Shown here in pieces: positions 6,879 to 44,593 of a stretch of DNA of 64,000 nucleotides. Position 1 is the stretch's first letter; each line of letters begins with the position of its first letter. Source of the stretch: Cobetia amphilecti (GTDB lineage Bacteria; Pseudomonadota; Gammaproteobacteria; Pseudomonadales; Halomonadaceae); contig NZ_CP084115.1 of NCBI RefSeq assembly GCF_020217465.1, positions 1,984,001 to 2,048,000 of the forward strand. Reading direction: 5' to 3'. The notes beneath the pieces were generated by a model. The model was not told the DNA's origin. It did not search any database and worked only from the letters and a program-made list of their open reading frames with translations. Made by a program: the position numbers and the translations under genes.

Positions 6879-6895
6879 GGGAGGGGGGAGCGGTG

Positions 6896-9254: not shown

Positions 9255-9332
9255 CGGTGGAACGCCAGTGGGTGGCAGAGTCGCGAAAGAGTGTGCGCGG
9301 GCAAGCGAGAGAGCAGGCGCTGGCAAGCGAAA

Positions 9333-9361: not shown

Positions 9362-9395
9362 ATCTTCACTCATCCAGCGGATGTCTGACGCCGCG

Positions 9396-20286: not shown

Positions 20287-21335
20287 TGAGTCGTCTTTCT
20301 TCGCCGCTGGGCGTCATACCCTCACAGGGCTTTTCCTCTGAACTCGGCGCACCTTCGGGCGGCTCTACCGCTGAGTCTTCAGGCGAGGCCCTGAATGCGG
20401 CCACCGGCCGGCAGGCTCCGGTTCCCCACGACAACCCCTTTCTGACGGTGCAGGAAGTCGCGCGCCTTCTGCACCTCAACGAGAAGAAGATCTATCAGCT
20501 GGCCAGTGACGGCACCATGCCGGCGACCAAGGTGACCGGCAAGTGGCTCTTTCCGCGGCGCCTGGTGGAGCAATGGATTCTCGAGTCCAGCCATCATGGT
20601 GTGCTGGCGGATCGCCTGATGATCACCGGCAGTGATGACCCGCTGCTGGCCGCGCTCTCCATGCGTCTCAATCAGCAGCATGCCGGTAGCGCCTTCTATG
20701 GCATGAGCGTCACCGGCACGCGTCTGGGGCTTGATCTGCTCAGCCAGGGGCGTGCTGACGTCTGCGCCATTCACTGGGGGCGCGCGGAGGAGGCGGCGCT
20801 GCGTCATCCGGCGCTGATTCGCGGCCATGATGGCTATCGTCAGTGGGTGATGGTGCGGCTTGCGCGCCGTACCCAGGGGCTGATCATCCGCAATGATGAT
20901 CGCCATCTGTCCATCGACCCCAGCGGCCTTTTCGGTTCGCAGCGGCGTTGGGCGGTGCGACAGGAGGGGGCAGGTTCGCAGCGCTTCCTGCAGGAGTGGC
21001 TGTCCGGCCATCAGATGCGTGCCGAGCAGCTCAACACCCTGGCGATCGCCTATTCCGAGCGTGAGGTGGCCTCGATGGTGGCGCGCGGCGAGGTGGATGT
21101 CGGCCCCGGTACGCTGTCGGCCGCCAATGAGTTCGGCCTCGGCTTCGTGCCGGTCTGTGAAGAGGCCTTCGACCTGGTGGTACCGCGCAATGTCTACTTC
21201 CGCGATCTCTTCCAGGGGTTGCTGGACTATCTTGCCACACCGAATGGCATCCAGCTGGCGCAATCCCTCGGCGGCTATGATCTGCGCGAATGCGGTCAGT
21301 TGATCTGGCGCGGCGATGCCGCACAGCACGATTGA
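20286..21335 (+). CDS. HTH regulator with molybdate-binding-type (COG1910/PBP-like) domain
   Basis: This 349-residue protein has an excisionase-like helix-turn-helix, FLTVQEVARLLHLNEKKIYQ near 49-68, ending KVTGKWLFPRRLVEQWI. A periplasmic-binding-protein-like domain follows: GSDDPLLAALSMRLNQ near 115, GLDLLSQGRADVCAIHWG, and GEVDVGPGTLSAANEFGLGF. No signal peptide is present, so the domain probably senses a cytoplasmic ligand. COG1910 homologues are linked to molybdate or tungstate. The ATG at 20286 overlaps the fdhD stop by one base, with AAGGGGG upstream; a GTG at 20283 is also possible. It is probably the local regulator of formate dehydrogenase (inference). Confidence 0.85.
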   Translation: MSRLSSPLGVIPSQGFSSELGAPSGGSTAESSGEALNAATGRQAPVPHDNPFLTVQEVARLLHLNEKKIYQLASDGTMPATKVTGKWLFPRRLVEQWILESSHHGVLADRLMITGSDDPLLAALSMRLNQQHAGSAFYGMSVTGTRLGLDLLSQGRADVCAIHWGRAEEAALRHPALIRGHDGYRQWVMVRLARRTQGLIIRNDDRHLSIDPSGLFGSQRRWAVRQEGAGSQRFLQEWLSGHQMRAEQLNTLAIAYSEREVASMVARGEVDVGPGTLSAANEFGLGFVPVCEEAFDLVVPRNVYFRDLFQGLLDYLATPNGIQLAQSLGGYDLRECGQLIWRGDAAQHD

Positions 21336-21376
21336 GACGCTCGGTATCGAGACGCTCTGTAATGAGACGCTCGATA
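21332..21376. repeat. three 15-bp tandem repeats containing a stop codon
   Basis: The units are TTGAGACGCTCGGTA, TCGAGACGCTCTGTA and ATGAGACGCTCGATA. The stop codon of the HTH regulator (TGA, 21333-21335) lies inside the first unit. TAA and TGA recur in the same frame at 21360 and 21363. Confidence 0.85.
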
Positions 21377-21445
21377 AACTGAACACCCAGTGGATGCTGG
21401 CGGTCAGGACTCGGCGCAAGCCATGAGTGTCTTTGCGATATCCAG

Positions 21446-21487
21446 AAAAATCGCCCATTAGCGCATGGCTAGTGGGCGATTTTTTTA
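21446..21487 (+). terminator. Rho-independent terminator
   Basis: AAAAATCGCCCATTAGC pairs with GGCTAGTGGGCGATTTTT around a short GCAT loop and runs into a T-tract. The A-tract on the left could also terminate the facing XRE-cupin gene. Confidence 0.9.
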
Positions 21488-21607
21488 TTTCGAGCTGACG
21501 GCGAGCATGGTCAAGCAAGTCATTGTTTTGAATGGACCGGCCAGGTGACGCTCGCGTTAAGGCAATCTTTGCGGTTTAGCTTCCTGCCAGTGCGTTACGT
21601 GGCTTGT

Positions 21608-21647
21608 CTCACTTCAACACAGCCCAGCTCACTTCAAATCAGATCAG
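21608..21647. repeat. two 20-bp tandem repeats spanning the XRE-cupin stop codon
   Basis: CTCACTTCAACACAGCCCAG (21608-21627) is followed by CTCACTTCAAATCAGATCAG (21628-21647). The TGA of the XRE-cupin gene occupies 21644-21646 of the second unit, and a partial third copy begins at 21648. Confidence 0.8.
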
Positions 21648-22282
21648 CTCGGATCCGAATCATTGCGAGTGCACACCGACAGCACGATGGCATCTTCTTC
21701 GCTGGTAGAAACCAGAGCGTGCCCCATGTCGGAGTCGAAATAGATGCTGTCACCCTCACCCAGCGGCAAGGGTTCATAGAATTCCGAATAGAGCAGAATG
21801 CTGCCCGCCAAGACCATCAGGAACTCCTCGCCGTCGTGACGCACCCAGTCGGGGAAGTCATCGAAGCTGCGCGCACGCACGCGAGTCTTGAAAGGAATCA
21901 TGCGTTTCTGCGCCAGCTGCCAGGACAGCAGCTCGTGCTCATAGGTCGGGGTCGGGTGTGACTTGCCATCACCGACGCGCGTCAGATCGCGACGCCCGAG
22001 TGTGCCACTCTGGCGCTTGGGCGGGCTCAGCAGCTGCGGCAGGTCGATGTTGAGACCATGAATCAGCTTCTGGACCGCCGTGAAGGTCGGCGAGATCTGC
22101 TCGTTCTCGATCTTGGACAATGTCGAGCGTGCCAGTCCCGTGCGCTGGCTGACATCTTCCAGCGTCCAGTGATGGGAGAGGCGGATCTGCTTCACGCGTT
22201 CGCCAAGCTTCAGGGGCTCAACGAAGGGTTTGCGACCGGAGGCGATCCGGACGGCGGCGTCCTTGTCTGTCGGTGTGCTCAT
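21644..22282 (-). CDS. XRE-family regulator with C-terminal cupin domain
   Basis: This 212-residue protein has an XRE helix-turn-helix, LGERVKQIRLSHHWTLEDVS then RTGLARSTLSKIENEQISPT, near 25-65. A cupin sensor follows with HDGEEFLMVLAGSILLYSE near 153 and SIYFDSDMGHALVS near 185. Relatives control polyamine, amino-acid or acid-degradation genes, and the ligand cannot be read from sequence. The ATG at 22282 has only a weak ribosome site; a GTG at 22321 would add 13 residues. A 13-bp inverted repeat lies 68 bases upstream and is a likely autoregulatory operator. No obvious target gene is co-directional. Confidence 0.88.
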   Translation of the reverse strand: MSTPTDKDAAVRIASGRKPFVEPLKLGERVKQIRLSHHWTLEDVSQRTGLARSTLSKIENEQISPTFTAVQKLIHGLNIDLPQLLSPPKRQSGTLGRRDLTRVGDGKSHPTPTYEHELLSWQLAQKRMIPFKTRVRARSFDDFPDWVRHDGEEFLMVLAGSILLYSEFYEPLPLGEGDSIYFDSDMGHALVSTSEEDAIVLSVCTRNDSDPS

Positions 22283-22349
22283 GAGAGTGGCTTCGCTATG
22301 GGCGTGATATTGGCGGCGCACGACATCGGGTGTCGCAGCGCTGTCAGCT

Positions 22350-22383
22350 GGCGATAAAGTTTACTATCGGAAACTTTATCGCC
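22350..22383. promoter_or_regulatory. perfect inverted repeat, probable operator of the XRE-cupin gene
   Basis: GGCGATAAAGTTT (22350-22362) and AAACTTTATCGCC (22371-22383) flank an eight-base spacer ACTATCGG. The inner part, GTTTACTATCGGAAAC, resembles the GTTT-N8-AAAC sites of XRE-cupin regulators. There is no T-tract, and the site is upstream of a start rather than after a stop, so an operator is more likely than a terminator. Confidence 0.6.
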
Positions 22384-22430
22384 AGCTTATCACAGCATGG
22401 CAAACGCGCATCATCCCGACACGTAGCCAA

Positions 22431-22475
22431 CATGGCTGTCCGCGACATGGCTGTCTGTGACATGGCTGTTCGCGA
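22431..22475. repeat. three 15-bp tandem repeats
   Basis: CATGGCTGTCCGCGA, CATGGCTGTCTGTGA and CATGGCTGTTCGCGA lie head to tail between the operator-like repeat and the end of the histone-deacetylase-like gene. Confidence 0.8.
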
Positions 22476-22508
22476 CACCGAAGGCTCGCTGGTGCTCCAA
22501 TGATGCAG

Positions 22509-22540
22509 CGACAGGTTTCCTGGCTGCGGGAAACCTGTCG
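22509..22540 (-). terminator. inverted repeat, possible terminator or operator
   Basis: CGACAGGTTTCC and GGAAACCTGTCG form a perfect 12-bp stem with loop TGGCTGCG. It lies 85 bases past the end of the histone-deacetylase-like gene. No T-tract follows on either strand, so the terminator role is uncertain. Confidence 0.4.
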
Positions 22541-22590
22541 TGAGGTGTGGTGTGCGTCAGGGAAAAAGTCACCGGTGCGGGGGATGCCCA

Positions 22591-22638
22591 GCGCTAGAAC
22601 AGTCGGGCACTAGAGCAGCCAGGCGCTAGAACAGCGGG
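22591..22638. repeat. three 16-bp tandem repeats spanning the HDAC-like stop codon
   Basis: GCGCTAGAACAGTCGG, GCACTAGAGCAGCCAG and GCGCTAGAACAGCGGG lie head to tail. The gene's TAG (22626-22628, minus strand) is in the third unit. Each unit contains a minus-strand TAG, and the 16-base period puts them in three different frames. Confidence 0.85.
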
Positions 22639-23777
22639 TGATCACGCTCATCCTCGGCGGGCTTGGCAAGCGACGGCTGGACGCCGTCTGGTGTGCCAGA
22701 GGCGGAGCGGGGCGGGAGGGCATCCACGGTGGGAGGCGCGAGATCGAGCTGGTCTGGCTCGGGTTTGTTTGACTCGGGTCGCTCTGACATGGGGTGCTTA
22801 GAAGGACGATGGCCGCCGGCACGTGCCTCGAGGCCATCCTGCATCGGCAAGCCCGCCAGCGCCTTGAGATGCGCCTCGGTGCTGCGCCCCAGCGCCTCCA
22901 GGCAATACCCGCCCTCCAGCACGGAGACGATACGCCCGTGGCAGTGACGCCGCGCGACATCCATCGCCAGTAGGGTGACCCAGTAATAGTCGTCATCTTC
23001 CAGGCACAGTTCTGCCATCGGGTCTTCACGGTGCGCGTCAAAGCCCGCCGAGATCAGGATCAACTCCGGCTTGAAATCATCAAGCTTCTTCAGCCATTGG
23101 GCTTCAATGGCGCGCCGGAAGGCCAGTGAGCCGCTGCCTTCGCTCAGGGGCGTGTTGTGGATGTGCTCCCAGCGGCTCTCCAGGTAGCGCCACGGGTACA
23201 TGGCGTCCTGAAAGGAGGAGCACACCAGCGTATCGGGGTCATGCTTGAAGATATCGACGGTGCCGTTGCCCTGGTGTACATCGAAATCGAGGATCGCGAT
23301 CCGCTTCACGCCGTAATGCTGGCGGGCGTGCAGAGCGCCCACCGCCACGTTGTTGTAGAAGCAGAAGCCCATCGCATCGGCGCGTTCGGCATGGTGGCCC
23401 GGGGGGCGCACGGCGCAGAAGACGTTGTCGGCCTGATCACGCATCACCTGGTCGACCCCGCGTACCACCGCGCCGGCGGCCAGTCGCGCCGCGACCAGGC
23501 TATCGGCACACATCACGGTGTCTTCGTTGATGGTCAGCAGCTGCCCGGCCTGGGGCGGACATTTCTCCAACGCCTGCAGGTGGCGCATGGGGTGCACGCG
23601 CGCCAGCTGCTCAAGCGTTGCCGCTCGCGCACTGTATTGCTGGACATGCTGAATCACGCCGCTCAGCGCCAGCTGACGCTCGATGGCCTGCAGACGCAGT
23701 GGGCTCTCGGGATGGGTGGGGCCCATGAAATGCTGACCGCAGTCGCGATGGGATATGTAGGAGGTGATCATCGGCAT
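22626..23777 (-). CDS. histone deacetylase family deacetylase
   Basis: This 383-residue zinc hydrolase belongs to the HDAC/acetoin-utilisation/acetylpolyamine amidohydrolase superfamily. The motifs are complete: RPPGHHAE with His128/His129, zinc ligands Asp166 and His168 in LDFDVHQGNGT, Asp247 in SAGFDAH, and EGGY near 288-291. Residues 1-310 are the catalytic domain. The last 70 residues are an unusual Pro/Ser/Glu-rich tail without homology that I recognise. It removes acetyl groups from lysine or polyamines (family). It diverges from an acyl-CoA synthetase/GNAT gene, so deacetylase and acetyltransferase are neighbours. Starts at 23777 and 23771 are both possible. Confidence 0.9.
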   Translation of the reverse strand: MPMITSYISHRDCGQHFMGPTHPESPLRLQAIERQLALSGVIQHVQQYSARAATLEQLARVHPMRHLQALEKCPPQAGQLLTINEDTVMCADSLVAARLAAGAVVRGVDQVMRDQADNVFCAVRPPGHHAERADAMGFCFYNNVAVGALHARQHYGVKRIAILDFDVHQGNGTVDIFKHDPDTLVCSSFQDAMYPWRYLESRWEHIHNTPLSEGSGSLAFRRAIEAQWLKKLDDFKPELILISAGFDAHREDPMAELCLEDDDYYWVTLLAMDVARRHCHGRIVSVLEGGYCLEALGRSTEAHLKALAGLPMQDGLEARAGGHRPSKHPMSERPESNKPEPDQLDLAPPTVDALPPRSASGTPDGVQPSLAKPAEDERDHPLF

Positions 23778-23972
23778 GCCTGCGTGAGTGTGCGGGTCAT
23801 AATGGTCTGCACCATGACGTAACAGTAAGAGTCGTCAATGGCATGAGCCAGTCGCCGATGGTCTACCTTGTTTCACGCATGAAGGGCGCGAGGATGGCTG
23901 TTCAGACCTGCGCTTTCGCGGCATGCTGCTCATATCGCGCTGACGAGGCGCAACCGCTGACAGGACAAGCCT

Positions 23973-26900
23973 ATGGGAACGCGATTTCTGCGCAATTTCT
24001 TCGAGCCCGCCAGTATCGTGGTGATCGGCGCCTCGGAAAAGCCGCATTCACTGGGCGGGCAGGTACTGCGCAATCTGCTTGAAGGGGGCTTCAAGGGCGC
24101 CCTGACGGTGGTCAACCCCAAGGGATATGAGACGGTGCATGGCGTGGCGTGCGTCAAGCGGGTCAGTGAGCTAGAGCAGGTGCCGGACCTGGCCATTCTG
24201 TGCTCACCGCCGGATACCTTGCCGCGTGTGGTCGAGAAGCTGGGCCGGCGCGGCGTCAAGGCGGCGCTGCTGATTTCGGGAGGTGTCGCGCCGACACCGG
24301 TCAGCTCGCTGGCCCGCGTCACCGGCAAGGGGCTTGAGATGCTGTCACGCCGCGACGGGCTGAACTTCACTGCCCCGCGTCTGCCGGGCATTCACAGGTC
24401 CACTACGGGCAAGCCAGGCCCCGAACCCTCCGTCACCGAGGCGTCGTCTTTGGATGAGGCCGGCGAGCCTGCCGCGCCGAGCGCCGAGCGCTACCCGCGG
24501 ATCGCCGACAGCACGGACGACGTGCTGGATGCCTCGCAGGCACGAGAGCCGGGTGTCGAAGTCCCGCGTATCCACCGTGATCAGGAAAGCCTCAACAGTC
24601 GGTTGCTCAAGGCCGCCCGAGGCAGTGGGATTCGCCTGCTCGGGCCGGAATGCATGGGCATCTGCGTGCCAAATCGGCACCTGAATGCCTCCTTCAGCGG
24701 GCAGCCAGTGGCCAAGGGCAAGGTCGCCTATCTCGGCCAGTCGGGGATGCTGGGCAATGCGATGATCGACTGGGCGGCAGGGCGCGGCATCGGCTTCTCG
24801 CATCTGGTGACCCTGGGCGACAGCGTCGATGTGATGCTGCCCGATCTGATCGACTATCTGAACCAGTACGGGCCGTCGCAGGCCTTGCTGTTGCACCTGG
24901 AGCGCATTCACGACCCGATGCACTTCATGACCGCGCTGCGCGAGGCGTCCCGCAATCGGCTGGTGCTGGCGATCAAGAGTGGCCGTACCCCGGAAGCCGA
25001 CCTGTTCGGCACACATGTCACACGTGGCGTGCCCAATCGCGACCGGATCGTCGATGTTGCCCTCGCGCGTGCCGGGGTGGTGCGCGTCAATGACAGCGAA
25101 GACATGTTCGATGCGCTGGAGACGCTGAATCGCATGAAGCCGTTGCGCGGTGATCGGCTGGCGATCGTCTCCAATGGGTTGGGCCCGGCCTTGCTGGCCA
25201 TCGACAAGCTGATGGCGGGTGGCGGCAAGCTGGCCGAGCTGAGCGAGGAGAGCCGCCAGGCGCTGCTCAAGGCCGAGCTGGATGTCAGCCTGCCGGGGCG
25301 CAATCCGGTGGATCTGGGCGGCAATGCCACGCCGGAAGATTTCCTGGCCGCGGTCAACATCGTGGCCAATGACCGTGGCGTGGACGCCGTGCTGGTCGTG
25401 CATGCGCCGACACGCCTTGCTCCCTCACGGGCAACGGCCGAGGCCCTGGTGGCGCATCGCAAGCAATTCCGACGCAACCTGCTGACCAGCTGGATGGGGC
25501 TCGAGCAGGCGCTTTCAGCCCGCCATGAATGCCATCTGGCCGGCATTCCGACCTATCTGTCGCCGGAGAAGGGCGTCAAGGCCTTCTTGCAGATGGTCGA
25601 TTACCACCGTGTGCAGACACTGTTGCAGCAGACGCCGCCGAGCCTGGCCTTCTCGACCAGTGCCGAGATCCGCGCCCGCGCCCATGATCTGGTGCACAGT
25701 GCGCGGCGTGCCGGCCGTGAATGGTTGACCCACTCGGAAACGGCGCAGGTGCTCGATACCTACGGCATCGCGACCGCGCCCAGTCGCTATGTGCTCGACG
25801 CCGCCGAAGGCGCGCGCGCCATCGTCGAATTGCAGCGATCTGCCACGGATGACGACAAGCCTTCTCGCCAGGGCCCCTATGCGCTGCGCGTGGTGCATGA
25901 ACACAACAGCCAGCCGTTCCGCTATCGCCGCTACCCACAGCGGCTGTCTTCCGGCGTGGTGCAGGACCTTTCCGGTCCGGAGGATATCGCGCTGGCGATT
26001 CGCCGCATCACCCAGAAGGTGGCGGAGGGCGATGCCGAGCGTGGCCGCGGTGACCACGAGCGCACGCGCATTCATGAGTTCTGCCTGCAGCCGATGCAGC
26101 GTGGCAAACACTCGCTGCAGTTGAGCGCAGGCATCACGCGCGATGACGAATTCGGCCCGGTGATCGTGTTCGGTATCGGCGGTTACAAGGTCAATGTGCT
26201 GGCGGACCGCCAGGTGGCCTTGCCGCCCCTCAACATGACACTGGCGCGTGAGCTGATCTCGCGCAGCCATGCCTCCCGCCTGATCGCCGAGCACTCGCCG
26301 GACCCGGAGCGCGATTTCGAGCGCGTCAGCACGCTGTTGATCAAGCTCTCACAGTTGGCATCGGATTTGCGTGACATAAGAGGGTTGGAAATCAATCCGT
26401 TGTTGCTCAATCGCGAGGAGGCCGTGGCAGTGGACTTCGCGCTGGATCTCGGCAAACCGGCCCGTTTCGCGATCATGCCGTATCCGGAGGAGCTGCGTGA
26501 ATGGGTGTCGCTGGACAATGGCATGCACGTCGAGGTTCGCCCGATACGCGGCGAGGATGCGCCCTTGATCACGGCCTTCCATGCGCGGCTATCCGAGGAG
26601 AGCATTCGTTTCCGCTACTTCCACCACAAGGCGGCGCTGACTCAGCGAGATCTCGCGTTGCTCGCCCAGATCAATTACGACCGCCAGATGGCCTTCATCG
26701 CCGAGCGTGAAGTGGAAGCCCAGTCAGGTGAGTCGCCGCAGCGCGAGATGCTGGGGGTGGTGCGGGTATGGAATGACCCGGACAACATTCGCACCGAATT
26801 CTCCGTCATCATCCGTGATGACATGCAAGGCGAGGGGATCGGCAGTCTGCTGATGGAGAAGATGCTGCGCTATTGCCGCTCGCTGGGCACGCTGGAGATG

Positions 26901-27062: not shown

Positions 27063-27523
27063 TGCGCCTTGATGGTGCAAGGGCCTGTTGATAGGCGTGT
27101 GCCTGGGCTTGTTGATAGGCGTGTGCGGGGGGTGTTCAAGGGCGCGTGCGCGGGCTTGCCAGGCGGTTCTCGGCAACACGCAATGCGTCAGGGAATGGAG
27201 AGCAATAGACCAATAACAACATGCAATGTCGTGATTCAGGGAGGTATCAGCAGAAGCGTCAAGGGCATACCACCTTGGTCGTATAAGCGTCTGTTCGTGT
27301 TTGAGCGCTTATCAATAAAACTGTATTGTAATTACAAATATAAGAATCCTTTATGGATAATGGCGCAGGGGATGACACAGTATTCTGTCAGCAGGTCGGC
27401 AAGCGATGCTTGCGGCCAGATTGCGCGATGTCAGCGGCAGGGCGAGCCATTCTCCCTGCCGGATTGAGTGCGTAATTGACAGAATCCGTGGATATTTCCT
27501 GCCCGCTGACGACAGGAAAGCCA
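27063..27523. other. intergenic: repeats and probable proVWX promoter
   Basis: No gene is called. It holds the 24-bp repeat at 27081-27128. Around 27305-27365 there is a markedly AT-rich stretch (for example AATTACAAATATAAG) that stands out from the GC-rich background and probably contains the osmotically controlled promoter of proVWX. Confidence 0.55.
27081..27128. repeat. two 24-bp direct repeats
   Basis: The shared core TTGATAGGCGTGTGC occurs in units 27081-27104 and 27105-27128. They lie 19 bases past the stop of the acyl-CoA synthetase/GNAT gene. Confidence 0.85.
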
Positions 27524-29586: not shown

Positions 29587-29736
29587 GGGGATTCACCAGC
29601 GGCCTCCGTGTATTGCCTGGCCCATGCGGAGGCCGCCTCGAGCACTTCCATACCCGACTCAACGTTTGGCCGTCGACACACGTTTTTCGACAGACGTGCT
29701 TCGATAAACAATGAGTAAATTCGAATAAAGGGGAAA

Positions 29737-30660
29737 ATGATGAACAAGCAAGATGCCTCCCACACTACCTTGAACGTCACCGCGAAGATGAATGCCGCCA
29801 CCAAGGCATTGCTGCTCGGCGCTGTCATGTCCTCCTCACTGGCCGGGGCAAGCGCCGTGTATGCCGCCGGTGACAAGGGCGATGTGACGCTGGCCTACGT
29901 CGAATGGTCCTCTGAAGTCGCCTCCACCAATGTGGTCAAGGCGGTGCTCGAATCACAGGGCTACAACGTCGAACTCAAGGCGCTGTCTGCGGCGGCGATG
30001 TTCCAGGCAGTCGCCTTCGGCGATGCCGACGGCATGGTCGGTGCGTGGCTCCCCACCACCCACGAAGACTACATGGCCAAGATCGCCGACAAGGTCGACG
30101 ACCTGGGCGTCAACCTCGAAGGCACCAAGCTCGGGCTGGTCGTGCCGTCCTACAGCAAGCTCGAGACCATCGACGACATCAAGACCCACGCCGAGGATAT
30201 CGATGAGCGCATCGTCGGCATCGAGCCGGGCGCAGGTCTGACGCGTCTGACCGAGCAGGTGCTGGAGGACTACGATCTCGAGGACATCGACCTGACCACC
30301 GGCAGCGGTGCGACCATGACCGCCGCGCTGAGCAATGCGATCAAGGGTGAGCGTGAGATCGTCGTCACCGGCTGGACGCCGCATTGGATGTTCGCCCGCT
30401 GGGACCTCAAGTATCTGGATGACCCGAAGGGCGTCTACGGCGGTGCCGAGGAGATTCACACCCTGGCGCGTAAGGGGCTCGAGGAAGACATGCCGGAGGT
30501 CTACGCGATTCTCGACAACTTCGCCTGGACCCCGGCTGACATGGGCGAAGTGATGCTCAACAACCAAGAAGACGACGCTGACCCCTACGAAACCGCCAAG
30601 GCGTGGGTGGAAAGCCATCAGGATATCGTCAAGGAATGGCTGCCGGCCGCGGCTGAGTGA
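29737..30660 (+). CDS. proX: glycine betaine/proline ABC transporter binding protein ProX
   Basis: This 307-residue periplasmic protein captures the osmoprotectant. The signal peptide is about 43 residues long, ending VYAAGDKG. Tryptophans in YVEWSS, VGAWLPTTHEDY and GWTPHWMF are in positions expected for the aromatic betaine cage of ProX (family comparison). AAGGGG precedes the ATG, though the spacing is short; a second ATG at 29740 is equally usable. A perfect 18-bp hairpin follows the gene. It is the last gene of proVWX. Confidence 0.94.
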   Translation: MMNKQDASHTTLNVTAKMNAATKALLLGAVMSSSLAGASAVYAAGDKGDVTLAYVEWSSEVASTNVVKAVLESQGYNVELKALSAAAMFQAVAFGDADGMVGAWLPTTHEDYMAKIADKVDDLGVNLEGTKLGLVVPSYSKLETIDDIKTHAEDIDERIVGIEPGAGLTRLTEQVLEDYDLEDIDLTTGSGATMTAALSNAIKGEREIVVTGWTPHWMFARWDLKYLDDPKGVYGGAEEIHTLARKGLEEDMPEVYAILDNFAWTPADMGEVMLNNQEDDADPYETAKAWVESHQDIVKEWLPAAAE

Positions 30661-30692
30661 TGCCTGACGCATGACTCGCTGAGTCATGAATG

Positions 30693-30732
30693 ACGAAACG
30701 CCCCCACAGGGTCTCCTGTGGGGGCGTTTCGT
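30693..30732 (+). terminator. terminator after proX
   Basis: Perfect 18-bp arms starting ACGAAACGCCCCCACAGG surround a GTCT loop. The tail TTTCGTTGTGT has scattered Ts. It may also serve the facing pseudouridine synthase gene. Confidence 0.85.
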
Positions 30733-30783
30733 TGTGTGCCTGCAAATGACGCGTCGCTCACCCCGGGCGAGCGGGAGCGGAAT

Positions 30784-30842
30784 GGCTCAGAACGGACTGG
30801 CTTAGCCTGACCTGATCAGAACGGGCGGGCTCAGAAAGGACA
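30784..30842. repeat. four degenerate 14-15-bp repeats spanning the rluA stop codon
   Basis: Units start at 30784, 30799, 30814 and 30828, with the best-conserved form GGCTCAGAACGGACT. The rluA stop (30831-30833) is in the last unit. Minus-strand stop triplets recur at 30816, 30802 and 30787. Confidence 0.65.
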
Positions 30843-31502
30843 GGGACTGCGCACTTCCATGCGCTCACCACTCACCGGGTGATCGAAGCTGATCATCTCG
30901 GCATGCAGCATCAGGCGCTCGGCCATGAAGAAGGCCTCATCCGTCGCATAGAGGTCGCAGCCCAGGATCGGGTGGCCGATCTGCTGGCTATGGATGCGCA
31001 ACTGATGCGTGCGACCTGACACCGGCGTGAACTCGACTCGCGTGCGCGCCGGATTCTCCAGGCGCTCGATGACGCGGAAATCGCTGATGGCGGTCTTGCC
31101 GGTCTCGTGGCAGATCTTCTGCAGCGGGAACTGGTCGACGTCCTTGGCGATGGGCAGCGAGATGCGCCCGCTGTCCTCCTCCAGATGGCCATGCAGGATC
31201 GCGGTGTAGGACTTGCCGATGTTGCGGTCCTGAAACTGGTGGGTCAGGTTGCCGTTGGCCGGCTTGTTGAGCGCGACCAGCATGATGCCGGAGGTGCCGA
31301 AATCGAGCCGGTGCAGCAGCTTGGCGCTGGGGTATTCCTTGACCAGGCGATGATGCAGCGAATCCAGATTGAGCGGATGCTTGCCGGAAAGGCTGAGCAG
31401 GCCACTGGGCTTGTGGATCAGCAGGATGTCATCGTCGGCGTACAGCACCGCGTAGGTTTCGTGGCAGACGGGAACGATGAACGGGTCGGCTTGTGGCTGC
31501 AT
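30831..31502 (-). CDS. rluA: RluA-family pseudouridine synthase
   Basis: This 223-residue enzyme isomerises uridine in structured RNA. The catalytic motif is HRLDFGTSGIMLVALNK near 64-80, with Asp67 as the nucleophile. It is followed by KSYTAILHGH, KICHETGKTAISDF and GRTHQLRIHSQQIGHPILG. The length and the CHETGK segment are close to E. coli RluA (23S rRNA and tRNA-Phe position 32), so rluA is favoured over rluC/D, which carry an S4 domain absent here. No clear ribosome site precedes the ATG. Confidence 0.87.
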   Translation of the reverse strand: MQPQADPFIVPVCHETYAVLYADDDILLIHKPSGLLSLSGKHPLNLDSLHHRLVKEYPSAKLLHRLDFGTSGIMLVALNKPANGNLTHQFQDRNIGKSYTAILHGHLEEDSGRISLPIAKDVDQFPLQKICHETGKTAISDFRVIERLENPARTRVEFTPVSGRTHQLRIHSQQIGHPILGCDLYATDEAFFMAERLMLHAEMISFDHPVSGERMEVRSPCPF

Positions 31503-31560
31503 AAGGGCTCGTCAGTGACATCAAGGAGGGCGGGGCGAAACGGCAAGTGAGGCAATTGCT

Positions 31561-31596
31561 GGCGTGCTCTAGAGCGCTGGCGCGGTCTAGAGCGCG
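31561..31596. repeat. two 18-bp repeats spanning a stop codon
   Basis: GGCGTGCTCTAGAGCGCT and GGCGCGGTCTAGAGCGCG lie head to tail. The stop of the hypothetical gene (TAG on minus, 31587-31589) is in the second unit, and an in-frame TAG recurs in the first unit. Confidence 0.75.
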
Positions 31597-32114
31597 ATAT
31601 CCTGCCAATGATACTCGTACTCGTCGTCCTCACCATCCTCTGGCGCACGACCGATGAAGAGGCTGGCGGTGAAGGCGCGCACGAAGATCACCTGGCTGCC
31701 ATCCAGTGCGGTCAGCAGCTCACCCTTCTTGAGCTTCTTGATCTTGCGCTTGCGTGCTGCGGCGGCATCACGCGCCGCGCGGGTGTCGGCGCGCCACTGG
31801 GCGGCAATCTCACCGGGCGCTGTCGACTGTTCGAGCAGCTCCTCGGGGCATTGCAGCGGAATGTCTGGCGTGCCTTCGTCACGGATATGGTATTCCCAGC
31901 GGCTGGGGTCACCATTCTTGGGAGCCTGCATCAGGTGCTGGCGAATGAAGGTATGGCCGTGAGGATGTTCCAGCACGGTATACAGCACATTGCCGACCAC
32001 GGCGTGATCGACCAGCGAGATGCCATGACTGTCGGACGGCGTATAACCGGCCAGCAGACGGTCTACCAGTGTCTGACGTGCCACCTTGGGGGTGCCGCTG
32101 TCATCCCAGGCCAT
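31587..32114 (-). CDS. hypothetical protein
   Basis: I do not recognise this 175-residue protein. It begins MAWDDSGTPKVARQTLVDRL and has no signal peptide or membrane segment. A basic, probably helical stretch near 115-145 reads RDAAAARKRKIKKLKKGELL. The tail is acidic (GEDDEYEYHWQ). The ATG at 32114 has GGAGG six bases upstream. An in-frame extension to 32363 is Arg/Cys rich and reads like non-coding sequence, so it is left out. It lies between rluA and pdxH on the same strand. Coding is supported by the ribosome site and amino-acid composition; the function is unknown. Confidence 0.7.
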   Translation of the reverse strand: MAWDDSGTPKVARQTLVDRLLAGYTPSDSHGISLVDHAVVGNVLYTVLEHPHGHTFIRQHLMQAPKNGDPSRWEYHIRDEGTPDIPLQCPEELLEQSTAPGEIAAQWRADTRAARDAAAARKRKIKKLKKGELLTALDGSQVIFVRAFTASLFIGRAPEDGEDDEYEYHWQDIAL

Positions 32115-32447
32115 GAAGCCTCCAATCTGAGCGTGTCTGGCATCGCAGGCCATGTCGGATGCGCTATGAATGACGCAGGCTGACTGGCGTTCCAGAGGCC
32201 GAAAGGGCGGCCATTGTCCGGCTTGTGCCCGGCGAGGGCAAGCCGCTGAACGCGCGAATCTGCGCCGGCGGGGTCTCAAGGAATAGCGCAAGCGATAACA
32301 CAAGCGGCAACCCGGCCGGCGCCCCGCACGGTAACCCGAACGGCAACGCAAGAGGCCCCGCATGAGCGGAGCCTCGAGAAGAGCGCCTGTTGTGGCGCAG
32401 ACTGGCTATCGGCACAGACTGGCTAGCGGCAGAGACTGGCTAGCGGG
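32115..32447. other. intergenic between the hypothetical gene and pdxH
   Basis: It contains a weak GAGGC/GCCTC hairpin at 32352-32375 that may terminate pdxH, several short GC-rich direct repeats (CGGCAAC, GGTAACC), and the 17-bp repeats that run into the pdxH stop. No gene is supported. Confidence 0.5.
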
Positions 32448-32448
32448 T
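32398..32448. repeat. three 17-bp tandem repeats abutting the pdxH stop codon
   Basis: CAGACTGGCTATCGGCA, CAGACTGGCTAGCGGCA and GAGACTGGCTAGCGGGT lie head to tail. The pdxH stop (TGA, minus, 32448-32450) begins in the third unit. Each unit has a minus-strand TAG, at 32440, 32423 and 32406, one per reading frame. Confidence 0.85.
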
Positions 32449-33098
32449 CAGGGTGCCAGCAGTTGCTTGTGCCATTCGCCGTCTTCCGTGTCCAGGCGCT
32501 GGTAGCGTACGCGATCGTGCAGGCGCGAGGGCTGCCCCTGCCAGAATTCGATCATTTCCGGCACTACGCGGTAGCCGCCCCAATGCTCCGGACGCGGCAC
32601 TTCGGTGGTGGCATAGACCTGCTCGAAGCGACCCTGACGCTCGCTGAGCCATTCGCGATCGGGAATCTCGACACTCTGCTGCGAGACCCAGGCGCCCAGC
32701 TGGCTCTCCTTGGGGCGTGAGGCGAAGTACTGATCGGAGGTGGCATCCGCGACCTTCTCGACGCTGCCTTCGATACGCACCTGGCGCTCCAGCGCGGGCC
32801 ACCAGAAGGTCAGCGCGGCGAAGGGCACATTGGCCAGCTCGCTGCCCTTGTGGCTCTGATAGTTGGTATAGAAGATGAAGCCTTCACTGTCGCAGCCCTT
32901 GAGCAGCACGATGCGCGCATGCGGCTTGCCCTGGCTGTCGACGGTGGAGAGCGTCATGACATTGGCGTCGTTGTCATCGGCGGACAGGGCGCTGGTCAAC
33001 CACTCCTGAAACAGCTCGAAGGGTTCCAGCGGTGTGTTCGCAAGGCTCAGGCCATCACCGGAATAGGTTCTGCGCACATCGGCGATATCGCGGTTCAT
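32448..33098 (-). CDS. pdxH: pyridoxamine 5'-phosphate oxidase
   Basis: This 216-residue FMN enzyme makes pyridoxal 5'-phosphate. It begins MNRDIADVRRTYSGDGL, then has PLEPFELFQEWL, RIVLLKGCDSEGFIFYTNYQ, SHKGSELANVPFAALTFWW, SRPKESQLGAWVS, and RLHDRVRY near the C-terminus, all PdxH hallmarks. The C-terminal KQLLAP replaces the usual RLAP. AAGGGAG precedes the ATG by about eight bases. An in-frame extension to 33236 overlaps azlD and is rejected. Confidence 0.95.
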   Translation of the reverse strand: MNRDIADVRRTYSGDGLSLANTPLEPFELFQEWLTSALSADDNDANVMTLSTVDSQGKPHARIVLLKGCDSEGFIFYTNYQSHKGSELANVPFAALTFWWPALERQVRIEGSVEKVADATSDQYFASRPKESQLGAWVSQQSVEIPDREWLSERQGRFEQVYATTEVPRPEHWGGYRVVPEMIEFWQGQPSRLHDRVRYQRLDTEDGEWHKQLLAP

Positions 33099-33168
33099 GG
33101 TGGGCTCCCTTGATGAATTGCTCATGTAATGACATGACTGTGACCGCTCACGTGCTGGATCGCAAGCA

Positions 33169-33543
33169 TCAGACACCGCCCAGCTGCAGCCACGCCATGT
33201 AAAGCCCGGTACCGACGGCAATCGAGAGCAGCGCATTGCGTCGCCACAGATGCAGTCCCGCCACGCAGAGGGCCGCGACCAGCATGCCGGCGCCCTCGGC
33301 GCTTACGAGCCAGCTTTGCCAGGCCGAGATGTGGTGCGCAGACTCTGACATGTCAGGCAGTTGCATGGCCGACAGCGAGACGATGATCAGCACGACCATG
33401 ACGATGGCCGGCAGATAGCGGCCCATATGCAGAATCAGCGGATGGGCCGAATGGCGGGACAGGAACACGAAGGGCAGCGCGCGCGTGGCGAAGGTCGCGC
33501 CGGCTGACACGGCGATCAACAGCAAGGCCTGCAGGGTCGTCAT
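33169..33543 (-). CDS. azlD: AzlD family branched-chain amino acid transporter subunit
   Basis: This 124-residue protein has four hydrophobic segments and the AzlD opening ATFATRALPFVFLSR near 16-30. AzlD partners AzlC in export of branched-chain amino acids or analogues. It starts inside the azlC stop with a four-base overlap, so the two are coupled. Its stop lies 71 bases from pdxH on the same strand. Inner membrane. Confidence 0.88.
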   Translation of the reverse strand: MTTLQALLLIAVSAGATFATRALPFVFLSRHSAHPLILHMGRYLPAIVMVVLIIVSLSAMQLPDMSESAHHISAWQSWLVSAEGAGMLVAALCVAGLHLWRRNALLSIAVGTGLYMAWLQLGGV

Positions 33544-34430
33544 GGGGTGGTGTGCTCCGAGGCTTGATTGTGTTCAGTCCGGCGCGCGCCAGACTTGCCG
33601 TGTGGGGGATGATCGTCACGCGGGGCAGGCGTGACGTGTGGCTGTTGTTTGCCACGCTGGTAATGATACTGCCCGAGCAGGAGGGCGCAGGCTGCCGCGA
33701 TGCTGCCCAGCAACAGCTGATCTTCCGGCAGCAGCCACAGGCCCGCGAGCGTGACCAGCAGGCCGAGCATGAAGGGCCAGCGCTCGCGCAGGGCGAACCA
33801 TTGTTCGATGCCCAGCACCACGAACAGCGCCGTCAACGCGAACTCGATGCCGCTGCTGTCAAAGCTGAGCTGTCCGGCTGCCAGACCCAGCAGCGTCCCC
33901 AGTACCCACCAGGATTGGTTGAGGAAGGTGATGCGCAACATCAGGCGCTGGTCATCACGGCGCGCCACGGGATCATCGCGTTCGCCGCTGCGTGGCAGGC
34001 TGGCCAGCAGCGAGTAGGTTTCATCGGTCAGCCCGAAGATGAGATAGAGCTTGCCAAGCCCCGCCGCGCGGAAGCGCTCCAGCAGCGACAGGCCGTAGAA
34101 GAGGTGGCGCGAATTGAGCAGCAGAGTGGCCACAAAGACCTCGGTGATGCCGGCGCCCGCACCGAGCAGCGCTACCGCCAGGAACTGGCCGGCCCCGGCC
34201 AGGATGACCAGTGACATCAAAAGGCCCAGCCAGGGGCTCAACGGCAGCTGGGTGAACAGCACGCCGAAGGCAGCGCCCAGCGGGATATAGCCGAACATCA
34301 CCGGCAGGGTCTTGTTGAGTGCCTGTTGCCATAGGTGACGACTGCTGACTGGCTGCCGGGGAGGCGAGCCCGCACAGGTGGTGTCGTCCCGGGAGGCGTG
34401 CGAGGTACCGGTCGTGGAAGGCGATGACAT
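33540..34430 (-). CDS. azlC: AzlC family branched-chain amino acid transporter permease
   Basis: The protein has about 296 residues and roughly six membrane helices. Family segments include TLPVMFGYIPLGAAFGVLF near 43, ILAGAGQFLAVALLGAGAG, LLLNSRHLFYGLSLLERF and LTDETYSLL. It forms a two-part exporter with AzlD (family knowledge). The hydrophilic C-terminal 45 residues look disordered. The start could be ATG 34430 or GTG 34475; neither has a strong ribosome site. It diverges from the cytochrome b561 gene across about 335 bases. Confidence 0.87.
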   Translation of the reverse strand: MSSPSTTGTSHASRDDTTCAGSPPRQPVSSRHLWQQALNKTLPVMFGYIPLGAAFGVLFTQLPLSPWLGLLMSLVILAGAGQFLAVALLGAGAGITEVFVATLLLNSRHLFYGLSLLERFRAAGLGKLYLIFGLTDETYSLLASLPRSGERDDPVARRDDQRLMLRITFLNQSWWVLGTLLGLAAGQLSFDSSGIEFALTALFVVLGIEQWFALRERWPFMLGLLVTLAGLWLLPEDQLLLGSIAAACALLLGQYHYQRGKQQPHVTPAPRDDHPPHGKSGARRTEHNQASEHTTP

Positions 34431-34766
34431 GGCGAGAGTTCCGTTCTGCGCAGGCGGGGTGAAGACGGGCGACACATGCCGGGAGCCTTCAAGAGGCCGA
34501 GACCCGGTAAGCCGCAGGCAATCTACGCAGCATATAATGTCATCAAGCGTCAGGCGATGCTGCCAAGGTGGCAGCTGGCAGTGGAAAGTGCTGAATCAGC
34601 GCTTCATTGCTGATATTTCACATGTCTCATGGCGGCACGGCCGATTGATTTGCCGTGAGCCGCCAGACCGAGTCCACCTATACTGGCCTGTAGTCGCTCG
34701 TTGGCTGCCTATCGCTGCCTGATCACGTGTGCCATCAAAGGTTCATTCGCTGAGGGAGTCATCAGG

Positions 34767-35525
34767 ATGAGTTCGAACCGATTCCGCAAGTCCTCGTCTG
34801 AGACGGTGCTTCATGATCAGGGTGAGCCTTCGCCGCTGCGCAGTGTCGTGATCTGGGGGCTGGCCATCCGGCTGTTTCACCTGCTGCTGATTCTGGCGAT
34901 CACCGGCATGTGGTACACCGCCGAGGTGGGCGCAGGACTCGATTTTCCGATGGTCTGGCACGCACGGTTGGGATATTGCGTGATCGGGCTGGTGGCGTTT
35001 CGCGTCATCTGGGGGCTGGTGGGCAGCGGGCATGCTCGCTTCAGCCGCTTCGTGGCGTCACCGCGCACGACCTGGCGCTACGCCGCTGACTTTCTGGCGG
35101 GACGCGCGCCACGCCATGCAGGCCACAATCCCCTGGGTGGCTGGATGACGCTGGCCATGTTGCTGGTGCTGGCGATTCAGGCCTCGAGCGGGCTGTTTCT
35201 CACCGATGATCTGCTGTTCGAAGGGCCCCTGCATGATCGGGTCCCAGCGAGTGTCGCCGAGGGGCTGGCCTGGGTGCATCACACCAATATCACGCTGCTG
35301 TGGGGGCTGATCGCCCTGCATCTGATGGCCATCGTCTGGCATGGCCTGCGCGGTGAGTGGCTGATCTGGGCGATGGTGCATGGCCGCAAGCATTTCAGGC
35401 GCGATGAATCGGTAGTGGATGAGGGCGAGCCAGTGCCACCTTTACGCCCACGCAGGAGGCTCGCGCTGGGGTTGGCGATCGGCATTGCCGTTCTGGTCAT
35501 CTGGCAGGGGGCGCAGTTGCCGTAA
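34767..35525 (+). CDS. cytochrome b561-family membrane protein
   Basis: This 252-residue inner-membrane protein has four helices of the bacterial cytochrome b561 / Ni-Fe hydrogenase b type plus a C-terminal helix. Candidate heme histidines are in IRLFHLLLIL near 39, VWHARLGY near 69, WVHHTNITLLW and ALHLMAIVWHGLRGEW. The start at 34767 has AGGGAG about nine bases upstream. It faces a cytochrome c' gene and shares a 20-bp terminator with it. Such b561/c' neighbours are common and suggest electron transfer between the two. Confidence 0.87.
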   Translation: MSSNRFRKSSSETVLHDQGEPSPLRSVVIWGLAIRLFHLLLILAITGMWYTAEVGAGLDFPMVWHARLGYCVIGLVAFRVIWGLVGSGHARFSRFVASPRTTWRYAADFLAGRAPRHAGHNPLGGWMTLAMLLVLAIQASSGLFLTDDLLFEGPLHDRVPASVAEGLAWVHHTNITLLWGLIALHLMAIVWHGLRGEWLIWAMVHGRKHFRRDESVVDEGEPVPPLRPRRRLALGLAIGIAVLVIWQGAQLP

Positions 35526-35591
35526 GCTCTGCTCGCTTTCACTCATGCTTTCGCTATGACTTTTACTCTCACTTTCGCCCTCATGTATGCC

Positions 35592-35643
35592 AAGACGCAA
35601 AAGCGCCGCCACGAGCAATCTCATGGCGGCGCTTTTGCGTCTT
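35592..35643. terminator. shared terminator of cytochrome b561 and cytochrome c' genes
   Basis: AAGACGCAAAAGCGCCGCCA and its exact complement form a 20-bp stem around a 12-base loop. The stem contains TTTT on both strands and lies between two convergent stops. Confidence 0.88.
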
Positions 35644-35661
35644 GACGGAGCTTTGGCTATA

Positions 35662-36171
35662 TCAGTCAGCGCGATACTGCTGATGACAGCCCTTGCAGGT
35701 CTTGGCTGTCTCGACGAACTGGCTGCGCAGGGCATCAAGGTCCTGACTGGCGGCGGCGTCAGCCAATGCCCGGCTCTGGGTCATCAGCGCCTCGGCACGC
35801 TTGTCGAAGCCTGCACGGTCGCTCTCTATCTTGCTCAGCGCGTCGGTATCACCGTCATAGGAACCGGCGATGAAGCCCTCCCATGGCATCTGAGCCAACA
35901 GCGCCAGTCGCTCGGCGCGGGTGCGAAACTCCTCGGCATCATAGTCCTGCTTGCCCTTGACCATCGCACCCATCGGACTGAACTGCCACGCCAGCGTCTG
36001 GAAGACTGCCTGGCGATACTGGATGGCATCTTCCGTCTTGTCAGCCAGTGCCGCTGGCGACGCCAACAGGCTGGCAAGCACCACGCCAGCCGCCAGCACG
36101 CCAGTGGTCAGGCGGTTGCGCGATACGCCCGCAGGGCGCGGAAAAGACAAGTGTGTTGTCAGGCCGATCAT
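35662..36171 (-). CDS. cytochrome c'
   Basis: This 169-residue periplasmic protein has a signal peptide of about 43 residues ending ALADKTED. The mature part is an all-helical c' fold with TLAWQFSPMGAMVKGKQDYD near 58-77 and a single C-terminal heme motif CKGCH at 159-163. Cytochromes c' bind NO or act in electron transfer (family knowledge). GAGG precedes the ATG by eight bases. It is convergent with the cytochrome b561 gene. Confidence 0.92.
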   Translation of the reverse strand: MIGLTTHLSFPRPAGVSRNRLTTGVLAAGVVLASLLASPAALADKTEDAIQYRQAVFQTLAWQFSPMGAMVKGKQDYDAEEFRTRAERLALLAQMPWEGFIAGSYDGDTDALSKIESDRAGFDKRAEALMTQSRALADAAASQDLDALRSQFVETAKTCKGCHQQYRAD

Positions 36172-36312
36172 GGCAAAGCCTCGCTGTAATCAACTCGCAA
36201 AGCCGATACAGCATGGGCGGCTCGCGATGGTTGAGGAGACACGCTGGGAAAAGCAGTGGGTAGCGGCGGGGTAAGTGGCAAGCCGCCGTGGGAGGGCGCA
36301 AACCGATACCCG

Positions 36313-36388
36313 CCATTCTAGTCGGCTATTTTACGGCTATTCTAGTCGCCTATTTTAGTCGGCTATTCTAGCCGCCAATTTTAGTCGA
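36313..36388. repeat. six degenerate 13-bp tandem repeats
   Basis: Unit consensus is CTATTYTAGTCGS. Units start at 36313, 36326 (11 bases), 36337, 36350, 36363 and 36376. The array begins 46 bases beyond the DUF2069 stop and lies about 140 bases upstream of the cytochrome c' start. Stop triplets occur in most units on both strands. Confidence 0.85.
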
Positions 36389-44510: not shown

Positions 44511-44523
44511 TCGCCACGAGCAG

Positions 44524-44557
44524 CAAATCCCGCAAGCAGTCAAATCCCGCAAGCAGT
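44524..44557. repeat. two-and-a-half 17-bp tandem repeats
   Basis: CAAATCCCGCAAGCAGT occurs twice exactly (44524-44540, 44541-44557), with a decayed third copy CAAATCAGACAGCAG after it. The array lies 13 bases past the Smr-gene stop and just before its terminator. Confidence 0.88.
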
Positions 44558-44593
44558 CAAATCAGACAGCAGAAAGCCGACAATGGACACAAG

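Follow-up and report, generated by a model that had tools for sequence, protein, structure and literature searches.

Short tandem arrays beyond stop codons in Cobetia are probably young minisatellites filtered by purifying selection

The short tandem arrays found at and beyond gene ends in Cobetia are probably young minisatellites that stem from high, lineage-specific birth and slippage and are filtered by purifying selection, so that their position "at gene 3′ ends" reflects mainly a filter rather than a target. We analyzed a window of 64,000 nucleotides from Cobetia amphilecti (NZ_CP084115.1, positions 1,984,001 to 2,048,000), for which an original prediction had listed 12 repeat loci at the ends of unrelated genes. 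TRF recovered a tandem array at all 12 loci, with coordinates off by a few bases at most and copy numbers that agreed in outline, not in exact values; a score of 50 was reached by 11 of the 12, the exception being the fdhC locus. The list proved incomplete, as 8 of the 19 arrays in the window (score ≥50, period 10–40; 17 intergenic and 2 within genes) were absent from it. These eight are marked "new" below, where the TRF calls are given with their counterparts in relatives; no strand is assigned unless stated.

2599–2628: 15 bp × 2.0, perfect, in a convergent spacer (new)
6817–6879: 12 bp × 5.2, degenerate, 16 nt past the moeA stop codon; variable in relatives
9207–9254: two abutting 12-bp arrays with different units (scores 46 and 44), cytochrome b561-type gene, beyond a terminator-like hairpin; a 12-bp copy is missing from G004 and a longer stretch from G005
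9283–9332: 22 bp × 2.3, abutting that same terminator-like hairpin (new)
18322–18349: 12 bp × 2.3, within predicted gene 17803–18588 (new, gene-internal)
21334–21377: 15 bp × 2.9, holding the stop codon of an HTH/PBP-like regulator (Pfam); 30 bp × 2.9 in G005 (about six 15-bp copies)
21608–21650: 20 bp × 2.2, holding the stop codon of an XRE-cupin gene (Pfam); × 3.6 in G004 and × 2.8 in G005
22430–22477: 15 bp × 3.2, mid-spacer (new); about two copies in the alignment of G004 and G005, under the TRF cut in both
22591–22635: 16 bp × 2.8, holding the stop codon of a histone-deacetylase-like gene (Pfam); an additional 14-nt segment in G005
27081–27126: 24 bp × 1.9, 18 nt past the stop codon of an acyl-CoA synthetase/GNAT gene
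30778–30841: 15 bp × 4.3, only 64% matches, holding the stop codon of an rluA-like gene
31558–31595: 18 bp × 2.1, holding the stop codon of a hypothetical gene; × 2.0 in G004, none detected in G005, G001 or G002
32394–32446: 17 bp × 3.1, at the pdxH stop codon; × 5.1 in G005
36311–36387: 13 bp × 6.2 or 26 bp × 2.9, 47 nt past the DUF2069 stop codon; 26 bp × 2.1 in G005, none detected in G004
39537–39578: 22 bp × 1.9, mid-spacer (new); 11-bp units in G004 and G005
44519–44563: 17 bp × 2.7, near-perfect, 8 nt past the Smr-gene stop codon; none detected in four relatives
47904–47966, plus strand: 21 bp × 3.0, spanning the BCCT gene start (new, gene-internal); G004 and G001 carry two copies, and none was detected in G005
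49828–49891: 24 bp × 2.7, past the BCCT stop codon; 23 bp × 2.6 in G001
50081–50153: 26/13 bp, 354 nt past the BCCT stop codon (new)
53778–53813: 15 bp × 2.4, remote from all gene ends (new)

The Pfam domain expected from the predicted gene name was present in 10 of the 12 array genes scanned; the gene called fdhC gave a cytochrome b561 domain, which is compatible with that name, and the hypothetical gene had no Pfam match at 1e-5. Stop codons lay inside five arrays (21334, 21608, 22591, 30778, and 31558) rather than the six or more that had been claimed, the sixth candidate, 32394–32446, ending 1 nt from the stop codon without containing it. The description "at or just past gene ends" did not fit the fdhC and BCCT loci, whose arrays are mid-spacer: about 140 nt separate the fdhC arrays from the stop codon, with a putative terminator hairpin, judged by eye, in between, and the BCCT array at 49828–49891 lies 101 nt beyond the stop codon of its gene.

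Arrays were far denser than expected by chance. In 464 kb of the genome (score ≥50, 20 shuffles), convergent spacers carried 2.01 arrays/kb versus 0.006 in shuffled sequence, co-directional spacers 0.73 versus 0.008, divergent spacers 0.34 versus 0.008, and genes 0.073 versus 0.016, spacer repeats thus being about 40–330 times denser than in shuffles. Genes were called with a codon-usage finder made for this analysis, whose starts are approximate and whose missed genes inflate the spacers (coding fraction 0.80 in this sample).

The density was also specific to the lineage. Four Cobetia genomes carried 0.91 arrays/kb of 3′-side spacer (112 in 123.0 kb) versus 0.14/kb across 14 further genera of the family (11 in 76.5 kb; ratio 6.3, P = 2e-13), with the proviso that orthologous arrays recur among the four genomes in the counts of densities, periods, occupancy, and stop-overlap placement. 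The contrast was weaker when 8-base matches at lags 11–17 were counted instead: the four genomes had 9.4–17.2 of them per 10 kb, G002 had 4.1, and G015, G017, G029, and G012 had 4.7, 6.3, 6.0, and 8.6, respectively. An E. coli control had no arrays in 10.7 kb of 3′-side spacer, a sample too small to carry much weight.

Copy number varied between species: the array at 27081 had 1.9, 1, and 3.1 copies in G000, G004, and G005, respectively. Array copy numbers and units differed between species in general (one genome per species), and arrays had been gained and lost. The copy number of short repeats is prone to error in some assemblies, and an assembly or sequencing artefact might be suspected on that general ground; since similar arrays were present in four assemblies of the clade, many with diverged copies, and few were found in most other genera of the same collection, we consider this explanation extremely improbable.

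The units themselves appeared unrelated. REP/BIME elements of E. coli are palindromic units that are intergenic and clustered and form a family with a common consensus. The Cobetia arrays are likewise intergenic and clustered, but their units had no shared consensus: 98 distinct units were found among the 128 arrays of the four genomes, and no 6-mer among these units passed correction. A weak excess of AACAG (11 of the 98 units versus 2.7 expected; Bonferroni 0.033) and 12-base matches elsewhere in 584 kb for 40 of the 65 G000 units, a count with no control run and a hand estimate of about one chance match per unit, are all that favor a dispersed family or mobile element inserted at gene ends, which is very improbable. 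Since the 27081 unit is present as a single copy in place in G004, that unit is local. These observations uphold the original view that the repeats are local duplications without common sequence, and no convincing shared motif or dispersed family emerged. E. coli REP/BIME palindromic units are named in PMC2884548.

Unit length was metered, mostly 11–17 bp with a peak at 14–15 bp. At lags 14–15, the four genomes gave 79 matches versus 4.3 in shuffles, and the peak was not seen in the 14 other genera (5 versus 1.0). A count of perfect duplications reproduced the peak, the lag method under-detecting old 8–10-bp duplications and the perfect-duplication count being biased in the opposite direction. 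Doubling of 5–7-nt units was rejected as the origin of peaks at 12 and 14, as it explained only 5 of 41 places, and excluding these left the peak in place. Divergent spacers, which contain no stop codon, had fewer arrays with a similar unit-length peak at 15–16 bp. Of 54 arrays within genes in the four genomes, 50 had a period divisible by 3; outside predicted genes this held for 51 of 132 and failed for 81, so that the spacer arrays do not behave as protein-coding repeats. Coding indels of 12 bp (8, of which 6 were of the tandem type) and 15 bp (6) were more numerous than those of 9 bp (5) and 18 bp (1), though outnumbered by those of 3 bp (21) and 6 bp (14). Perfect duplications within genes were of 9 bp at 31 of 41 places and for this reason show no 14–15-bp peak. 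As regards microhomology at duplication borders, of 34 perfect spacer arrays with fewer than 2.9 copies, 7 had no extra match, 7 had one base, and 20 had two or more, the last group being contaminated by old multi-copy arrays.

Such a preferred length could also be set by a sequence-independent duplicating machine with a built-in ruler in the Cobetia clade, in which a fixed-size intermediate, such as the flap of an Okazaki primer left in place or a patch from nucleotide-excision repair, would be ligated in and double about 11–17 nt, most often 14–15, chromosome-wide. We regard this as unlikely; if true, it would constitute a lineage-specific mutation signature. A search covering Ku, the Pol I 5′ nuclease, SbcC, RecJ, and ExoI revealed no causal repair defect. 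Ku was found in 1 of 23 genomes and was missing from all six that belong to the genus, which speaks against an origin of the duplications by end joining there. A lost Pol I 5′ nuclease was rejected as well, since all 23 genomes have the domain and an alignment of nine shows it to be conserved. The idea that SbcC, RecJ, or ExoI had been lost was rejected because each of the six Cobetia genomes had matches to all three, SbcC and RecJ falling below the curated cut-off in these six as they did in 22 and 12, respectively, of all 23 genomes searched. Seemingly longer Pol I open frames were largely explained by read-through from upstream together with a longer linker; the Cobetia linker between the 5′ nuclease and the polymerase is 28–37 residues longer than in the three other genera aligned. 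This linker is a possible but unproven cause of the duplications; G002 and G003 have a long linker too, but fewer arrays.

Arrays do concentrate past stop codons, as the original prediction stated. It put this down to a local process near translation ends or to selection acting there, and a duplication process focused on translation or transcription ends, through ribosome release, RNA polymerase pausing, or collisions at terminators, would have this effect. Between stop codon and terminator (predicted with a simple finder made for this analysis), arrays occupied 7.0% of bases in co-directional gaps and 7.6% in convergent ones, and beyond the terminator of co-directional gaps 6.8%, the comparison resting on the 89 of 435 co-directional gaps with a predicted terminator; the other 346 had only 3.4%. 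Equal density on either side of the terminator argues against a bias toward transcribed regions and against an end-focused process. Occupancy was only 1.6% in the last 150 nt upstream of starts, 1.7% in divergent spacers, and 0.1–0.2% in terminator hairpins.

Indels were scored against G004 and G005, so that events on the G000 branch are counted twice; summed over these two relatives, tandem indels numbered 13, 8, 5, and 6 in successive quarters of co-directional gaps from stop to start, and non-tandem indels 35, 19, 5, and 6. The stop bias of the non-tandem indels is thus at least equal to that of the tandem ones (chi-square P = 0.29). A regression over 630 usable windows of ≤40 bp, only 33 of them with arrays, showed that G004–G005 divergence predicted G000 arrays (coefficient 0.33 per 0.1; bootstrap 0.04 to 0.59) and that proximity to a start reduced them (−0.96; −2.27 to −0.11); with both controlled, stop proximity had no significant effect (0.26; −0.68 to 1.07). 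In-frame 12- and 15-bp indels within genes, with 18 of the 31 coding indels of ≥9 bp lying more than 500 bp from the gene 3′ end, and the 15–16-bp peak in divergent spacers further oppose an end-focused process. What speaks for it is a mild residual excess, about 1.5-fold, over the 50 nt that follow stop codons, with occupancy of about 8% at 10–40 nt past the stop versus about 5% at 60–120 nt. Stop-overlapping arrays numbered 22 of 71 placed versus 14.1 expected under a null excluding promoters and hairpins (P = 0.043 convergent, 0.087 co-directional), after 39 arrays, 37 of them co-directional, had been dropped; a cruder null, uniform within the gap, gave 31 of 110 versus 14.4. The original prediction had named equal density in other intergenic sequence as the outcome that would count against it, and far from starts this is what was observed, apart from the excess just described. 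Taken together, an end-focused process appears rather unlikely.

Selection favoring the arrays, for instance as stop–terminator spacers or elements of the 3′ untranslated region, is quite improbable. Several arrays do lie between stop and terminator, and unrelated 12-bp and 16-bp units arose at the rluA gene end in G001 and G002. However, spacer length was not kept at the two gaps compared (21336–21643: 308, 337, 365, 140, and 221 bp across five genomes; 9083–9395: 313, 301, 256, 222, and 251 bp), arrays were equally dense past terminators, and they had been gained and lost between species.

We thus favor minisatellite birth followed by filtering. The length spectra suggest that replication or repair in the Cobetia clade may often duplicate any short sequence, mostly of 11–17 bp. 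Once two copies are present, their number would change, as the species comparison shows and presumably by slippage, and the copies would decay. Purifying selection would then purge arrays from terminator hairpins, from the last 150 nt upstream of starts, and from genes unless they are in frame, a step suggested by correlation, and the arrays would need no function of their own. With such selection acting elsewhere, arrays would persist in weakly constrained spacer, which in a compact genome is mostly the stretch 3′ of genes. Constraint tolerance matched array density bin by bin only loosely: at substitution rates of 0.085–0.092, near-stop bins had 5.2–7.8% array bases, mid-spacer 5.9%, and one near-start bin 2.7%. 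Also weighing against this reading are the residual excess near stop codons, the small number of array windows in the regression, the prevalence of 9-bp units among perfect duplications within genes, the 3.4% occupancy of co-directional gaps lacking a predicted terminator, the weaker lineage contrast given by 8-base matches, and the fact that the search for a causal repair defect found none.

The original prediction held that no feature type names these arrays; they are in fact minisatellites of the VNTR type, although their density and metered unit length are unusual. Bacterial VNTR loci are described as short head-to-tail copies that are variable between related genomes and often intergenic, with copy number usually changing by slippage, and minisatellites (units ≥20 bp, palindromic units apart) made up 2–4% of variable loci in an E. 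coli survey (PMC2884548). The Cobetia arrays share these features, with head-to-tail units within about 10–60 bp and copy numbers that vary between related genomes, but unlike the loci described there they reach about 1 array/kb of 3′-side spacer in the clade, have mostly 2–3 copies, and peak at 14–15 bp. Subirana and Messeguer described repeats of constant size and variable sequence, with units of 20–21 or 52 nt in four copies or more (PMC8161180, PMC6749651), as well as 12-, 14-, and 16-nt repeats derived from 6–8-nt units in two Burkholderia species and a 14-nt family in Chloroflexus (PMC6749651). As in those cases, many arrays of similar unit size and unrelated sequence occur within a species, and one lineage is high while its neighbors are low; unlike them, the Cobetia peak lies at 14–15 bp (lags to 60), is not constant, and survives removal of 5–7-nt units, and copies are usually fewer (17 of the 19 window arrays have fewer than the four required at 60% equal length). 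The main text of PMC6749651 mentions neither Cobetia nor Halomonas. In penA of Burkholderia thailandensis, new two-copy duplications arose with or without direct-repeat borders (PMC4169377); Cobetia has similar two-copy duplications, some apparently with and some without direct repeats at their borders, but genome-wide and without known selection rather than in one gene under drug selection. Our literature search found no papers on Cobetia tandem repeats, nor any linking repeats to stop codons and convergent genes, and no report of the pattern in this genus was seen among the matches listed for related topics.

For annotation, these results mean that tandem arrays beyond Cobetia stop codons should not automatically be read as regulatory elements. 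The birth of minisatellites is less well understood than their subsequent slippage, and Cobetia spacers, which record many duplications of one favored length, offer a natural test bed for it; because the size peak was not seen in 14 other genera, the question of which enzyme sets the length becomes testable.

The original prediction described unrelated tandem repeats at gene 3′ ends. TRF recovered an array at all 12 loci named there and, at a score of ≥50 and a period of 10–40, found 19 arrays in the window, comprising 11 of the named arrays and eight unlisted ones. A stop codon had been placed within at least six arrays; this was so for five, the sixth ending one base away. Across 21 stretches (464 kb) of the single-contig, 4.16-Mb genome (G000; window, 1984001–2048000), convergent spacers contained 17 arrays in 8.4 kb, co-directional spacers 37 in 51.0 kb, divergent spacers 10 in 29.5 kb, and genes 27, against a chance level of 0.006 to 0.016 arrays per kb in shuffled sequence. 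The pattern is genuine and greatly exceeds chance. Separately, a hexamer microsatellite (AAGACA ×6.3; window 63680–63717) was observed directly beyond a gene end.

No consensus common to the array units was found, in keeping with the earlier view that they are unrelated and do not form one dispersed family; a REP/BIME-like family is disfavored for the same reason. By definition, the arrays are minisatellites. Although similar to the repeats that Subirana and Messeguer described as constant in size and variable in sequence (PMC8161180; PMC6749651), they differ in copy number and in size, the criterion for the latter being 20–21 or 52 nt. A study of de novo duplications in Burkholderia describes two-copy ones, with and without direct repeats at their borders (PMC4169377).

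An 8-kb query against five other Cobetia genomes identified two colinear relatives, G004 (94% identical) and G005 (91%), the rest being lower. Array copies were gained and lost in place between orthologous spacers. In the spacer alignment, three species had 1.9, 1, and 3.1 copies of a 24-bp unit downstream of the acyl-CoA synthetase gene, and the 17-bp unit past pdxH had 3.1 copies in G000 and 5.1 in G005. The Smr array was not detected in four relatives, and the rluA gene end carried unrelated units of 12 and 16 bp in G001 and G002 (two further Cobetia genomes). Spacer indels between G000 and G004 were distributed non-monotonically by size (1–3 bp, 75; 4–7 bp, 14; 8–11 bp, 15; 12–15 bp, 22; 16–20 bp, 11; 21–30 bp, 15). 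Among those of 12–15 bp, 10 of 22 (G004) and 13 of 22 (G005) were of tandem type, where about none was expected. Counts for single sizes over both relatives included 15 bp (n = 19), 9 bp (12), 30 bp (11), 12 bp (10), and 14 bp (8).

Two elements were conserved within variable spacers. A long inverted repeat, AGCTGGCGATAAAGTTT...AAACTTTATCGCCAGCT (window 22346–22387), immediately 5′ of the XRE-cupin gene, was identical in G004 and G005 though the surrounding spacer varied, and is probably the operator of this regulator. A block at 9164–9193, ACTTTACGCAACTAATG followed by GAGCTGTGAAC, was kept in all five aligned Cobetia genomes while the remaining spacer was not conserved; it may serve the gene at 8738–9109 as promoter or operator.

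Arrays in spacer past gene ends (3′-side spacer) numbered 67 in 60.4 kb in G000, 17 in 23.6 kb in G004, 15 in 22.1 kb in G005, and 13 in 16.9 kb in G001, compared with 5 in 19.3 kb and 0 in 2.5 kb in the Cobetia genomes G002 and G003. Fourteen other genera of the family, Halomonadaceae, had 11 in 76.5 kb, five of them in 8.6 kb of G015 alone; outside the family, none was found in 6.6 kb of G029 (same order) or 10.7 kb of E. coli. The four array-rich genomes exceeded the 14 genera 6.3-fold (P = 2e-13) and G002 plus G003 4.0-fold (P = 4e-4), P values that overstate the evidence because arrays are common to related species. Each of the four had a higher density than every other genome, G015 (0.58 arrays per kb) nearing G005 (0.68). 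The 11–17 lag count gave a weaker lineage contrast, being likewise elevated in G015, G017, G029, and G012.

An initial lag spectrum showed maxima at 12, 14, and 15. Since some 12- and 14-bp units were doubled 6- or 7-mers, it was recomputed using 8-base matches without multiples of short units. In 133.9 kb of Cobetia 3′-side spacer, lags 14–15 gave 79 matches versus 4.3 in shuffles (8–10, 11 versus 8.0; 11–13, 54 versus 8.0; 16–18, 39 versus 8.0; 19–23, 38 versus 12.0). Divergent spacers peaked at 15–16 (10 and 7 matches; shuffles, 0.7 each); 81.1 kb from 14 other genera showed no peak (lags 14–15, 5 versus 1.0). True periods at 41 perfect spacer duplications were 15 bp (n = 7), 14 bp (6), 11 and 12 bp (4 each), and 9, 17, and 7 bp (3 each), others occurring once or twice. 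Within genes (144 and 149 kb aligned), indels of 12 bp (n = 8) and 15 bp (6) exceeded those of 9 bp (5) and 18 bp (1) but were outnumbered by those of 3 bp (21) and 6 bp (14), and 31 of 41 perfect duplications were of 9 bp. The preference for a certain length is therefore evident in spacers, whereas genes only hint at it.

Possible rulers for unit length are flap ligation and patches left by excision repair. Ku was not found in the Cobetia genomes searched; SbcC, RecJ, ExoI, and the Pol I 5′ nuclease were all present. In an alignment of nine sequences, the linker joining this nuclease to the polymerase part was 28–37 residues longer in Cobetia than in G015, G006, and G008 (other genera):
G000:C1:257401–261500, DNA polymerase I with the long linker, by alignment; common to six Cobetia genomes
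The long linker also occurs in G002 and G003, which hold fewer arrays. As separate observations, SbcC (G000:C1:560574–564125) has long open frames of 1195–1252 aa in the four array-rich genomes, and its match to the family model is broken into pieces and scores lower than in most other genera of the family; the recJ match of G003 (G003:C87:26979–28648) is split over two adjacent open frames, which could be a frameshift or draft error.

The original prediction also invoked a process or selection aimed at translation ends. In 584 kb of G000, array occupancy climbed from <2% to 7–8% within 50 nt past the stop and was 3–7% up to 200 nt, compared with 1.4–3.3% in the 125 nt upstream of starts. In the four genomes, an intrinsic terminator was predicted in 89 of 435 co-directional gaps; there, arrays occupied 7.0% of bases from stop to terminator, 6.8% past it, 0.1% of hairpins, and 1.6% of the final 150 nt ahead of the start (gaps lacking a predicted terminator, 3.4%). 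Convergent spacers had 7.6% ahead of the first terminator and 8.7% past it (5.8% where none was predicted), and divergent spacers 1.7%. Outside arrays, G000–G004 substitution rates were 0.148 in the first 30-nt bin past stops, 0.124 in the second, and 0.047–0.089 across the five bins ahead of starts, agreeing loosely with array density bin by bin. Of 636 windows, 630 were usable, and 33 of these held arrays; in a regression on them, divergence between two other species predicted arrays and start nearness reduced them, while stop nearness had no significant effect. The stop bias of non-tandem indels was at least that of tandem ones. Against this, arrays overlapped stop codons in 22 of 71 cases versus 14.1 expected under a null without promoters and hairpins (39 arrays excluded), and in 31 of 110 versus 14.4 under a cruder null. 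Weighed together, these results indicate that tolerance accounts for the bulk of the pattern; the residual, approximately 1.5-fold stop excess may reflect either constraint that is relaxed more strongly there or a slight local influence. A duplication process focused on translation or transcription ends is unlikely, though it gains slightly, and the main reading loses slightly, from the excess of 9-bp duplications in genes and from a bin-level fit that is loose. We consider it likely that Cobetia minisatellites are born, and slip, at a high lineage-specific rate and are filtered by selection.
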